Source of the DNA: Oscillospiraceae bacterium
GTDB lineage: Bacteria > Bacillota > Clostridia > Oscillospirales > Acutalibacteraceae
Assembly: GCA_009785335.1 (NCBI GenBank)
Contig: WQWM01000027.1
Span: forward strand, 1 to 32,752
Reading direction: 5' to 3'
Length of the DNA: 32,752 nt
Each line of letters begins with the position of its first letter. Within the stretch, counting starts at the first letter, position 1. The notes under the pieces were generated by a model. The model did no database searches. It was given only the letters and a program-made list of their open reading frames with translations, and was not told the origin of the DNA. The position numbers were made by a program, and so were the translations under genes. Shown one piece after another: positions 26,080 through 28,707 of the stretch.

Positions 26080-26118
26080 AAAAACCAACGGCAGAGCTAA
26101 AAGCCCTGCCGCTTTGTT
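26080..26118 (-). terminator. Cassette terminator T1
   Basis: On the minus strand, GCGGCAGGGC and GCTCTGCCG pair over a TTTTA loop and are followed by TTGGTTTTTTT. All 39 bases are identical to 27365-27403. Confidence 0.85.
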
Positions 26119-26130
26119 TGTCACCACCTA

Positions 26131-26862
26131 TCAGCCGTCAACTCTAGTGTAACTATAACTCGTGTTGGCTACTTGGCGACTGGTGAGCGTGAGCACGTTG
26201 TCCGTGATGTGATAGTCCCATTGTTCAAACGGCAAACCGCCTGGTGGCACATCGGCGTGGTCTATGCTCATATACACACGGCCATTGCCGGGGATCGACC
26301 ACCAAAAGCGTTGAAGGCTCATGCCCGCGCCGCCACGCACGCCCGTGCCATCTGTGTTGAACATATAGATGTAGTCCACGTTGTCGTTCCAAGCCCAAGT
26401 GCCCACCAGTGCGTGGTTGCTCAGGATTGCAACGTCTGCGGGGGTTGTTGTTGGCATTGTCGCTTTAGGCGGCGTTTCGCCGGGCATAACTCTGCTATAG
26501 CTATGGCGCACGCCGATTTCTTGGCGGCTGGTAATAGTAAGTACATCGTCTGCAATCACATACCCCCAGCGTTCGTCGCGCCGCTGACCCAGCACGATGT
26601 CTTCGCGATTAGTGCGCATATACAATCGACCATCGCTGGGAATTGACCACACGAAGTGCTGTCGTGCCACGCCGGTTGTGTCACCGCGCGAACCCGTGCC
26701 ATCTGCGTAGAAGACATAGGTATAACTTGCGCCTTCAGTCCAAGCCCAAGTGCCTACCAATGCGTGGTTGCTCATGTCAGTGCTGTTGCAGCCGATGAAG
26801 GTGAGCACTAAGCCAAGCATCACCACTAATGCCAGTGCCGATGCAAAAATCCGTTTCGCCAT
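26131..26862 (-). CDS. Lipoprotein A with tandem GTW/DGTG repeats
   Basis: 243 aa. Signal peptide with lipobox TFIGC (Cys near residue 25). Two copies of an about 95-residue domain follow: HALVGTWAW, then a strand with F(Y/N)(A/T)DGTG, (F/W)WSIP(S/G)(D/N)GR, and a closing LT(I/L)TSRQ...YSRV/YTRV. The pattern resembles small lipocalin-like beta-barrel domains (DUF5640-type), which is inference. Close paralogue of the gene at 27416. GGAGG lies nine bases before ATG 26862; an earlier in-frame start at 26946 would overlap the upstream regulator gene. A terminator-like hairpin lies between that regulator and this start. Confidence 0.85.
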   Translation of the reverse strand: MAKRIFASALALVVMLGLVLTFIGCNSTDMSNHALVGTWAWTEGASYTYVFYADGTGSRGDTTGVARQHFVWSIPSDGRLYMRTNREDIVLGQRRDERWGYVIADDVLTITSRQEIGVRHSYSRVMPGETPPKATMPTTTPADVAILSNHALVGTWAWNDNVDYIYMFNTDGTGVRGGAGMSLQRFWWSIPGNGRVYMSIDHADVPPGGLPFEQWDYHITDNVLTLTSRQVANTSYSYTRVDG

Positions 26863-26878
26863 GAGAAATACCTCCAAT

Positions 26879-26904
26879 AAAAACGACAGAACCGAAGCCC
26901 TGCC
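26879..26904 (-). terminator. UUCG-loop terminator ahead of lipoprotein A
   Basis: The minus strand reads GGCAGGGC-TTCG-GTTCTGTC then GTTTTTATT: an eight-pair stem (three G-U pairs) with a UUCG tetraloop and a T-tract. It lies seven bases after the RHH stop and 16 bases before the lipoprotein A start codon. Confidence 0.65.
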
Positions 26905-26911
26905 CGCATGC

Positions 26912-27082
26912 TTATACATCTTCGCTCTCCAAATGCTCCAGTGCATATCTCAACGCGATATCCACAAACCGATTCATTGAAATATTCTTCTGCGTACAAA
27001 CGACCTCGACGTCATTGATTAGCTTCACATTTAGTCGAAATGTCTTGTTTGCAAATTCTTCGCGTTCAATTTTTAGACCCAT
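26912..27082 (-). CDS. Ribbon-helix-helix (Arc/MetJ-type) small regulator
   Basis: 56 aa. The N-terminal strand (NKTFRLNVKLINDVE) and two helices (VEVVCTQKNISMNRFVDIAL and RYALEHLESE) fit the RHH fold; the ISMNRFVDIAL segment is the usual turn and second helix. AGAGGT lies upstream of ATG 27082. It is divergent from the 48-aa gene at 27220 and most likely regulates that promoter and its own. It occupies the place held by an unrelated XRE regulator in the second cassette. Confidence 0.75.
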   Translation of the reverse strand: MGLKIEREEFANKTFRLNVKLINDVEVVCTQKNISMNRFVDIALRYALEHLESEDV

Positions 27083-27148
27083 GCACTTACCTCTTTTCTT
27101 ATCATTACAAGATAATTATAAGTGCTAGAACGATTAATTGATATACAG

Positions 27149-27175
27149 TGAATTTACACTTGATTTTTCAGTGCA
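27149..27175. promoter_or_regulatory. Candidate RHH operator
   Basis: CAGTG, ACACTTG and CAGTG alternate across the -35 region of the 27160-27188 promoter, giving overlapping inverted pairs (AGTG-N6-CACT). RHH repressors often bind such tandem short sites. This is inferred from position only. Confidence 0.4.
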
Positions 27176-27188
27176 ACCGTGTTATACT
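27160..27188 (+). promoter_or_regulatory. Promoter of 48-aa protein gene
   Basis: TTGATT (27160-27165), 17 bases, TATACT (27183-27188). Confidence 0.75.
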
Positions 27189-27219
27189 ATAAAAAACTAG
27201 GTGATGAAAGGAATAGCAC

Positions 27220-27366
27220 ATGAATAATGTATATGAAGACCTGTACGAACACATCAAAGCATTTGAGCAGCGCATGACAACCGAACCCGAAGGCTGGGAC
27301 GAATTCATCGCGGACATCAAAAAGAAAATTCTTCTGCAGCAAATTGCATCATATCAAAAGAAATAA
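27220..27366 (+). CDS. 48-aa helical protein, cassette 1
   Basis: It begins MNNVYEDLYEHIKAFEQRM and contains TTEPEGWDEFIADIKKKIL. It is probably two amphipathic helices around the EPEG turn: the first half is acidic, the second Lys-rich. It differs from the 49-aa protein at 28527 by only a few residues in the shared 46. AAAGGAA is six bases before the ATG, as in the other copy. No family is known to me. It ends within two bases of the bidirectional terminator T2. Confidence 0.8.
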   Translation: MNNVYEDLYEHIKAFEQRMTTEPEGWDEFIADIKKKILLQQIASYQKK

Positions 27367-27403
27367 AAACCAACGGCAGAGCTAAAAGCCCTGCCGCTTT
27401 GTT
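27365..27403. terminator. Cassette terminator T2, bidirectional
   Basis: Same 39-base sequence as T1. CGGCAGAGC and GCCCTGCCG pair, with A-rich and T-rich flanks. It closes the 48-aa gene on the plus strand and lipoprotein B on the minus strand. Confidence 0.85.
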
Positions 27404-27415
27404 ATGCGATTTGCA

Positions 27416-28132
27416 CTAGCGTGTGTAGGTGAATTCCATGCCTGCCACTTGCTGGCTGGTAATGGTCAAGCTGTTGGTGCCCAGCGCGTAGCTCCACATT
27501 TCGGGTTCGATGCAAGTGCTCATTTCTGCGTGTCCGGAGATTTCGCAGAGATCTGGGGTAATGCAGATATACAATGTGCCATCCACGGTGGTCCAAGCGA
27601 TTGCACTGGGGGCTTCAAACTGCCCGCTCACGTCGCGCACGCCTGTGCCATCTGCATTGAAGGTATAGTAGACCGAGTCCAGCCAGTTCCAGTTGCCAAC
27701 GATGCTTGCTGGTTCAACTTGTGCAGGGGCAGTGGTGGTGGTGACTTCGGGTTCGGCATCAACTCTGGTGTAGCTAAAGCGCACGCCGGATTCTTGGCGG
27801 CTTTCAATGGTCACAACATTGCCTGCGATGCTATAGTCCCAACGTTCGGCGCGACGAGTGCCTTGCACCACGTCAGCGCGATCAATGTCGATGTTCAGGC
27901 GGCCATTGCCGGGAATTGACCACGAAAAACCTTGACGAGGCATGCCTGCGCCACCGCGCACGCCAGTGCCATCTGCGTTGAATACGTAGGTAAACGCTGC
28001 GTTGGTGTTCCAGGTCCAGGTGCCCACCAGTGCGTGGTCGCTTACGTCTGCGCTGCCGCAGCCTGCGAATGCTATGCCCATGAATGCTGCCATTGCCAGT
28101 GCTAGGATAATTGCCAGTGTACGTTTTGCCAT
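27416..28132 (-). CDS. Lipoprotein B with tandem GTW/DGTG repeats
   Basis: 238 aa. Signal peptide with lipobox AFAGC (Cys near residue 25). Domain 1 (DHALVGTWTW ... FNADGTGVRGGAG ... WSIPGNGRLNI ... SRQESGVRFSYTRV) is closely similar to both domains of lipoprotein A. A TTTT linker follows, then a diverged second domain (VGNWNWLDSVYYTFNADGTG) with an extra Cys-containing loop (YICITPDLCEISG, STCIEP). GGAGG precedes ATG 28132. It has its own promoter. Confidence 0.85.
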   Translation of the reverse strand: MAKRTLAIILALAMAAFMGIAFAGCGSADVSDHALVGTWTWNTNAAFTYVFNADGTGVRGGAGMPRQGFSWSIPGNGRLNIDIDRADVVQGTRRAERWDYSIAGNVVTIESRQESGVRFSYTRVDAEPEVTTTTAPAQVEPASIVGNWNWLDSVYYTFNADGTGVRDVSGQFEAPSAIAWTTVDGTLYICITPDLCEISGHAEMSTCIEPEMWSYALGTNSLTITSQQVAGMEFTYTR

Positions 28133-28167
28133 GTGTTCTTTTCCTCCAAAATTATGTTGATATAACT

Positions 28168-28196
28168 ATTGTACATGACTGCGCGTGCATTGTCAA
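28168..28196 (-). promoter_or_regulatory. Promoter of lipoprotein B
   Basis: On the minus strand TTGACA, 17 bases, TACAAT. It lies between the XRE stop codon and the lipoprotein start, so this lipoprotein need not depend on read-through from the regulator. Confidence 0.8.
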
Positions 28197-28201
28197 GTGT
28201 T

Positions 28202-28432
28202 TTATTTCTTCTTTGGATAGGGTGTTGCGACGTCAGTTCGCTCAAGCAGATAGTCCGTCGAGGTATTATAATAATCGGCCAAACGCTCTAAAACATCCAG
28301 AGGGATGCCGCGTATCCCTCGCTCGTATTGGCCATATGTTCCTGTGCCGCAGGAAAGATATTTTGCGATTGCTGCCTGCGAGAGGTCTGCGTCTTCGCGC
28401 AAGTCGCGAATTCTTCGATACATGTTAGTCAT
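28202..28432 (-). CDS. XRE-family helix-turn-helix regulator
   Basis: 76 aa. RIRDLREDADLSQAAIAKYL, a recognition helix region with TGTYGQYERGIRGIPLDVL, and ERLADYYNTSTDYLLERTD form the compact Cro/C1 HTH of Clostridial XRE repressors. There is no ribosome site before either Met (28432 or 28423), but TAAAAT lies six bases before the first, so the message may be leaderless. Divergent from the 49-aa gene, whose promoter carries a palindrome fit for this repressor. Confidence 0.88.
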   Translation of the reverse strand: MTNMYRRIRDLREDADLSQAAIAKYLSCGTGTYGQYERGIRGIPLDVLERLADYYNTSTDYLLERTDVATPYPKKK

Positions 28433-28464
28433 GCAAAAATTTTACACTATTTTACCATTAGGTA

Positions 28465-28493
28465 TTGACATTTGACTCGTTTTGAGTCATAAT
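28465..28493 (+). promoter_or_regulatory. Promoter of 49-aa gene with operator-like palindrome
   Basis: TTGACA (28465-28470), 17 bases, CATAAT (28488-28493). TGACTC-GTTTT-GAGTCA (28473-28489) is a perfect six-base inverted repeat inside the spacer and touching the -10 box, the classic place for a repressor. Confidence 0.8.
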
Positions 28494-28526
28494 ATTATCA
28501 TAACCAAAACGCGAAAGGAATAACAT

Positions 28527-28676
28527 ATGAGCAATGTATACGAAGAGTTGTATGAACACATCAAGGCATTTGAGCAGCGCATGACAACCGAACCCGAAGG
28601 CTGGGATGAATTCATCGCAGACATCAAAAAGAAAATTCTTCAGCAGCAAATCGCCAGCTATCAACAGAATACGTAA
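28527..28676 (+). CDS. 49-aa helical protein, cassette 2
   Basis: It begins MSNVYEELYEHIKAFEQRM and is near-identical to the 48-aa protein at 27220 (N/S, D/E and L/Q changes, different last three residues). The ribosome site (AAAGGAA, then six bases) is conserved too. Most differences between the copies are synonymous or conservative, which points to selection on the protein. Function is unknown. Confidence 0.8.
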   Translation: MSNVYEELYEHIKAFEQRMTTEPEGWDEFIADIKKKILQQQIASYQQNT

Positions 28677-28682
28677 AAACAA

Positions 28683-28707
28683 CGGCAGAGCTTTGTGGGC
28701 TCTGCCG
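28683..28707. terminator. Cassette terminator T3 / pnp terminator, bidirectional
   Basis: CGGCAGAGC and GCTCTGCCG form a perfect nine-base stem over a seven-base loop, with A-rich left and T-rich right flanks. The stem is related to T1 and T2. It separates the 49-aa gene from convergent pnp. Confidence 0.85.

Follow-up and report, generated by a model that had tools for sequence, protein, structure and literature searches.

A short exchangeable repressor beside a protein of about 50 residues: a candidate two-gene switch recurring in two related genomes of the Oscillospirales

The window analysed here is the whole stretch of 32,752 nucleotides from the genome of a gut bacterium of the Oscillospiraceae (contig WQWM01000027.1), in which two tandem units lie between dgt and pnp, each with a lipoprotein gene of DUF5640 type, a short regulator gene and a divergent gene for a small protein. 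The recurrent part of these units was read as a compact autoregulated two-gene switch, in which a short exchangeable repressor would stand, usually divergently, beside a single gene for a cytosolic protein of about 50 residues (probability roughly 0.55, on sequence evidence). A short repressor with a small protein is a known kind of arrangement. New, as far as the sequences indicate, are two orphan small-protein families, an exchange between species of the regulator fold at a single locus and, as is suggested below, private operators; a literature search for a divergent arrangement of XRE and small open reading frame returned no matching paper. The first-pass annotation of the window had set out the layout of the two units, and its order and coordinates were confirmed (Table 1). 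Its statement that no such system has been described was too strong, since PMC2701414 and PMC6929052 describe a fixed effector with exchange of XRE and ribbon-helix-helix (RHH) partners among type II toxin–antitoxin families.

The small proteins of the window belong to one family (family A) with seven copies, four in the same genome (G000, 2.25 Mb; two in the window and one each on contigs C25 and C44) and three in a same-genus relative (G010; contigs C22, C21 and C36). Third-codon-position differences were in excess in all 15 pairs of six copies, the frame-shifted seventh being left out of this comparison. Among the six pairs of four copies, nonsynonymous divergence (dN, NG86) was 0.05–0.19 and synonymous divergence (dS) was 0.54–1.89, with dN/dS of about 0.08–0.19. 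This indicates protein-level conservation, on which the first-pass annotation had made its proposal depend, and the short frame is a real gene under purifying selection. The two small proteins of the window, described as near-identical, share 90 % identity, and identities among these two and the C25 and C22 copies were 78–90 %. The family A products are soluble, with a mildly acidic pI (4.7–6.0 in six of seven copies).

Toxin families were sought in Pfam, PHROGs, NCBIfam and PADLOC with three family A proteins as queries. No match exceeded the curated cut-off in Pfam or NCBIfam, none was found in PADLOC at E 0.1, and PHROG matches were weak (best E 0.009). Sub-threshold Pfam matches such as Herpes_U15, Ku_PK_bind and ACOX were judged to be due to chance, a PDB sequence search with the small-protein profile was dropped (best E 0.33), and the sporulation inhibitor Sda, to which a likeness was considered, was listed by no family or PDB search. 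In a set of 60 relatives, eight genomes gave matches to family A at E up to 1, with strong matches in G000 and G010 only. A search of 14 genomes of the genus found three at E 0.01, of which the third (G013, E 0.0018) was a chance match inside a frame of 1176 amino acids (aa). In a sample of the GTDB family, one of 398 genomes contained family A, namely the genome of the window; the G010 copies were missing, so G010 lies outside that sample. The five matching genomes in an order sample of 394 were the same genome and four with matches at E 0.007–0.041 in frames of 191–569 aa, two of them with stops, again attributed to chance. A pattern scan of genome contigs gave 116 matches at three loci, all in G010. 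No relatives of family A were found among 50,697 phage and 72,556 plasmid records, or in viral contigs at the sensitivity of the pattern scan. No distant relative is credible, and by these sequence searches the module is found in two genomes only.

A regulator gene adjoins six of the seven family A loci: a divergent XRE gene at four, a divergent RHH-like gene at one and a co-directional RHH-like gene at one. The genome of the window has 29 HTH_3 matches, and by our arithmetic about 1.5 % of random sites in it would fall within 500 bases of one. No regulator was seen at the C44 copy, where the contig extends only 294 bases upstream. Of the recurrent neighbours that had been anticipated for the small protein, varied regulators were thus found at six of seven loci, but direct linkage with the lipoprotein at three of seven only. 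The regulators are short (67–80 aa for XRE, 56–57 aa for RHH-like proteins). The assignment of the unit-2 regulator to XRE stood (HTH_3, 47.4 bits against a Pfam cut-off of 23), and the XRE partners on C25, C21 and C36 are likewise over the cut-off. That of the unit-1 regulator to RHH is weak, with sub-threshold matches only: the window protein reached 14.3 of 28 bits for CopG_antitoxin (E 0.073) and its G010 C22 analogue 15.2 of 20.5 bits for RHH_1, both below the Pfam cut-off, and Arc-like repressors were matched in PHROGs (E 0.0057 and 0.00034, respectively). These two RHH-like proteins are 18 % identical; a PDB sequence search with the RHH-like protein was dropped (best E 0.13).

The C25 copy has no lipoprotein beside it, and the C36 copy lies by a divergent pair of XRE genes. 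At the dgt–pnp locus of G010 (C22), an RHH-like gene lies upstream of the small gene, in the same direction, and ends 4 bases before it, with one lipoprotein gene adjoining. On G010 C21 (L035:3828-3999) a frame shift close to the beginning of the family A gene disrupts it, and the divergent XRE frame is open. Two tandem XRE genes, 50 % like that of unit 2, occur on G000 C54 (L062:3879-4415) beside ribosomal-protein genes and the contig end, with no family A gene. GC-rich palindromic repeats (GGGCGGCAA..TTGCCGCCC..CTACATG) lie beside the family A copies of G000 C44 (L006:4560-4650) and C25 (L005:2850-5020) and resemble short interspersed elements.

Regulators and small proteins did not show the same relationships. 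The XRE protein of unit 2 is closer to that of G010 C21 (77 %) than to that of C25 (71 %), whereas its small protein is closer to that of C25 (84 %) than to that of C21 (60 %). At a spacing of 1307, the two small genes of the window lie in a 157-base block (27206-27362 and 28513-28669) with 89 % identity, which starts 14 bases before the start codon, so that the gene and its ribosome-site region have been kept and the upstream sequence differs. Taken at the level of sequence, this indicates exchange of the regulator around the small gene rather than simple duplication.

A predicted inverted repeat overlaps the small-gene promoter at all four family A XRE loci. The repeats of unit 2 (TGACTC-GTTTT-GAGTCA) and C25 (TGGACC-AAGAT-GGTCCA) share their register between the -35 and -10 elements and their five-base spacing, and their arms differ yet remain complementary. 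Compared with resampled promoter cores, the repeats gave p values of 0.040, 0.008, 0.009 and 0.054 at the XRE loci of family A and of 0.081, 0.004, 0.389 and 0.019 at those of a second family (family B, below), the predicted repeats being significant at five of the eight; three lipoprotein promoters used as a control gave 1.0, 0.47 and 0.35. Differences among three close XRE proteins concentrate in residues 29–42 (p 0.003, 0.051 and 0.008 for the three pairs), which is presumably where the recognition helix lies. This suggests that the operators are private, the paralogous XRE proteins no longer sharing predicted operators. Since operators and recognition regions both differ between paralogues, the copies are probably controlled independently.

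Family B was found by reading around the other short XRE genes of both genomes (five stretches and locus L035); among these, a divergent small gene was present only at L035. The family consists of proteins of 49–52 aa, with two copies in the genome of the window and two in G010, one of the latter broken by a stop; the remaining 12 genomes searched in the genus have none. All four copies are divergent from a short XRE gene. The proteins are soluble and acidic, with no match over the cut-off in the libraries searched, and the family was absent from the same phage and plasmid records and, by pattern scan, from viral contigs. Families A and B showed no relation to one another (hhalign probability 0.1 %, E 0.47), and their XRE proteins are related (39 % over 62 residues). 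On G000 C31 a RelB/DinJ–YoeB toxin–antitoxin pair (L075:622-1162) directly adjoins the family B unit.

In the switch that we favour, the regulator would bind the promoter repeat and repress the small gene, and probably itself too, as the anatomy and the operators suggest. Were the repressor lost, outrun or inactivated, a burst of cytosolic small protein would follow. The small protein stays alike whichever regulator accompanies it, and it is therefore proposed that it may act intracellularly on one target that all copies share, which is a guess and the least certain step; most likely it would inhibit or modulate a protein of the host or of a phage. A wider proposal, which we put forward only tentatively, is that one lineage has built parallel, insulated one-gene switches, with at least two dissimilar effector families of about 50 residues, private operators and a repressor that can be replaced across folds (XRE or RHH) without a change of effector.

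Several observations weigh against this interpretation. One family B promoter lacks a good repeat (p 0.389), and the RHH-like loci have no significant one, as 752 of 1000 resamples for unit 1 and 649 of 1000 for G010 C22 were as good. The unit-2 repeat is not significant in the longer intergenic stretch (129 of 1000), and at G010 C21 the in-register repeat matches at five of six positions, the best and longer palindrome lying 10 bases upstream. Promoter cores and residues 29–42 were chosen by the analyst, so the p values are guides; the copies are related, so neither these values nor the adjacency of a regulator at six of seven loci are independent observations. The co-directional RHH-like gene at G010 C22 fits an operon of toxin–antitoxin type equally well. 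Finally, two units have a DUF5640-like gene in their vicinity: at the G010 C21 unit it is about 1 kb away, with another gene in between, and at the family B unit of G000 C5 the distance is about 3.7 kb. This leaves room for a looser tie of the small-protein units to DUF5640-type proteins.

The main rival is a toxin–antitoxin system, in which the small protein would be the toxin, the XRE or RHH-like protein would be both antitoxin and repressor, and antitoxin families would have been exchanged around a fixed toxin. We regard this as unlikely, although it is the best placed of the alternatives. The XRE and RHH partner exchange described in the papers cited above takes place around one toxin family, and type II systems with mixed partners (RelE or MazF with XRE, RHH, AbrB or Phd) are alike in their two small genes, in the XRE- or RHH-type partner beside one conserved small protein, in their several copies per genome and in the operator expected to overlap the promoter. 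The single operon at G010 C22 would suit such a system, as would the two small genes of G010 C21 that are broken while the adjoining XRE frames are open, and the RelB/DinJ–YoeB pair beside a family B unit. However, nine of the ten regulator-linked loci are divergent (five of six for family A and four of four for family B), the operon at G010 C22 being the only one, and no known toxin family was matched over the cut-off. Usual type II antitoxins are longer than the regulators found here, which at 56–80 aa have little beyond the DNA-binding domain with which to neutralise a toxin. Divergence and short regulators together argue against the canonical type II form.

An improbable alternative is that the small protein is an anti-repressor, binding and releasing its own regulator as proposed for the WhiJ/BldB-type XRE–DUF397 pairs of actinobacteria. 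Those pairs, which were once proposed as toxin–antitoxin systems (PMC2701414, PMC10364602 and PMC6262351), are likewise a many-copy, lineage-expanded pairing of an XRE protein with a small acidic protein (PMC10294661). The units described here differ in that their XRE proteins have no large C-terminal domain, their partners include RHH-like proteins and their lineage is Clostridia; neither small protein of the window matched DUF397 at E up to 1. One closely similar small-protein family (units 1 and 2, C25 and G010 C22) also stands beside XRE and two barely similar RHH-like proteins, so that a single conserved surface would need to fit unrelated partners.

It is highly unlikely that the units are remnants of a mobile element carrying an anti-defence or host-takeover cassette like acr–aca, with a small effector and an HTH or RHH autorepressor. 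The likeness lies in a small orphan protein beside a (here predicted) HTH autorepressor and in inverted repeats over the -10 and -35 elements, such as those that Aca1 and Aca2 bind (PMC8434428). Unlike acr–aca operons, the units are divergent, neither small-protein family has a relative in the phage and plasmid records or viral contigs covered above, and no phage genes were noticed beside the units, without a systematic search for them. Phage-type divergent switches of repressor and early gene (RstR, cI/cro) also have an XRE gene divergent from the gene to be repressed, as here, and the RstR model gives a sub-threshold match to the XRE proteins (E 3.6e-10, 40 of 80 bits). They differ from the present units, in which there is a single small gene whose transcript is predicted to end at a hairpin and in which the same remark on phage genes applies.

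The lipoproteins appear to be bystanders. Read along the minus strand, the gene order is pnp, XRE gene, lipoprotein 2, RHH-like gene, lipoprotein 1 and dgt, with pnp and dgt identified by NCBIfam equivalog matches, and the two small genes are oriented plus, opposite to the rest. Both lipoproteins match DUF5640 over the Pfam cut-off (44.2 and 51 bits against 28.5), a domain on which a literature search found no paper. Lipoprotein 1 comprises 243 aa from a start before the lipobox, the mechanical open reading frame having 271 aa. The two were rightly described as paralogues, lipoprotein 2 being 56 and 57 % identical to the two halves of lipoprotein 1; it is 81 % identical to its G010 counterpart. 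A DUF5640 lipoprotein directly adjoins three of the seven family A copies, all at the dgt–pnp locus, and is missing beside the other four. In a third species (G002), the contig carries dgt, a hairpin, a lipoprotein gene, a hairpin, a second lipoprotein gene, a hairpin and the apparent end of pnp, judged by eye, with nothing between, and the genus search found no family A gene in this genome, which is 70 % complete. The promoter of lipoprotein 2 is retained in all three species (aligned in the window, G010 and G002). An envelope system with lipoprotein and small protein as joint outputs of a swappable regulator, as the first-pass annotation had it, has in its favour the two tandem units of the window and the lipoprotein beside the G010 C22 copy, but becomes very improbable in the face of these three findings, which instead identify the regulator and small protein as the recurrent unit. 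The lipoproteins are probably an older neighbouring pair, between which the regulator and small-protein pairs sit.

Recent tandem duplication of a whole unit is not favoured either, in view of the G002 lipoprotein pair without small genes and because dS between small genes 1 and 2 (0.54) is near that of each to the distant C25 copy (0.62 and 0.67). The claimed identity of hairpins T1 and T2 over 39 bases was confirmed, and T3 is 62 % like both; all three fold better than shuffled sequences (z -5.3, -5.6 and -4.5), whereas the hairpin before lipoprotein 1 folds weakly in the window (z -1.03, with 30 of 200 shuffles as good). The identity of T1 and T2 was rejected as proof of cassette duplication, as the hairpin type recurs elsewhere and between the G002 lipoproteins. 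In the genome of the window this type occurs at five sites, three in the window and one each on C25 and C3 (seven pattern matches counting both strands, none in the control). The match at G000 C3 77230-77255 is the only one outside the window's contig (C27) and C25. Because it occurs at several sites, G002 included, the hairpin type is associated with the dgt–pnp locus and not just with the small gene. The hairpin at C25 stands without a lipoprotein beside it, which suggests that this copy may have come from the dgt–pnp locus.

Table 1. Positions of the features discussed (window coordinates, unless a locus or contig is named)
Feature	Position	Strand	Evidence
T1 hairpin, 3' of lipoprotein 1	26080-26118	minus	hairpin pattern, fold test
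Lipoprotein 1, two DUF5640-type domains, probable bystander	26131-26862	minus	DUF5640 E 1.8e-11
Hairpin between RHH-like gene and lipoprotein 1	26885-26904	minus	aligns with G002 inter-lipoprotein hairpin
RHH-like regulator, unit 1, 56 aa, divergent from small protein 1	26912-27082	minus	sub-threshold matches
Promoter-like site of small protein 1 (TTGATT, 17, TATACT)	27160-27188	plus	
Small protein 1, 48 aa, orphan family A	27220-27366	plus	no family match over curated cut-off
T2 hairpin, where small protein 1 and lipoprotein 2 converge	27365-27403		
Lipoprotein 2, 238 aa, two DUF5640-type domains, probable bystander	27416-28132	minus	DUF5640 E 1.3e-13
Own promoter of lipoprotein 2 (TTGACA, 17, TACAAT)	28168-28196	minus	aligned promoter in G010, G002
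XRE regulator, unit 2, 76 aa, divergent from small protein 2	28202-28432	minus	HTH_3 E 1.9e-12
Promoter of small protein 2 (TTGACA, 17, CATAAT)	28465-28493	plus	
Putative XRE operator, between -35 and -10	28474-28490		p 0.040 against promoter-core resamples
Small protein 2, 49 aa, orphan family A	28527-28676	plus	
T3 hairpin, 3' of small protein 2	28683-28707	plus	
Family B locus (G000 C5)	L074:1189-1650		
Family B locus (G000 C31)	L075:1201-1650		
Family B locus	L073:1498-1967		
Family B locus (G010 C21)	G010:C21:19113-19501		

Elsewhere in the window, positions 125-2278 encode two putative secreted proteins that contain T-rich repeats and resemble each other in their hydrophobic C-terminal ends; the second of these proteins we take to resemble a CAP/SCP-domain protein.

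In this analysis a lipoprotein locus is told apart from a module that happens to lie within it. If the interpretation of that module as a switch is true, it would offer a small and clear example from nature of an output that stays fixed while its regulator is exchanged, in which the predicted operators and the recognition regions of paralogues may be read side by side.

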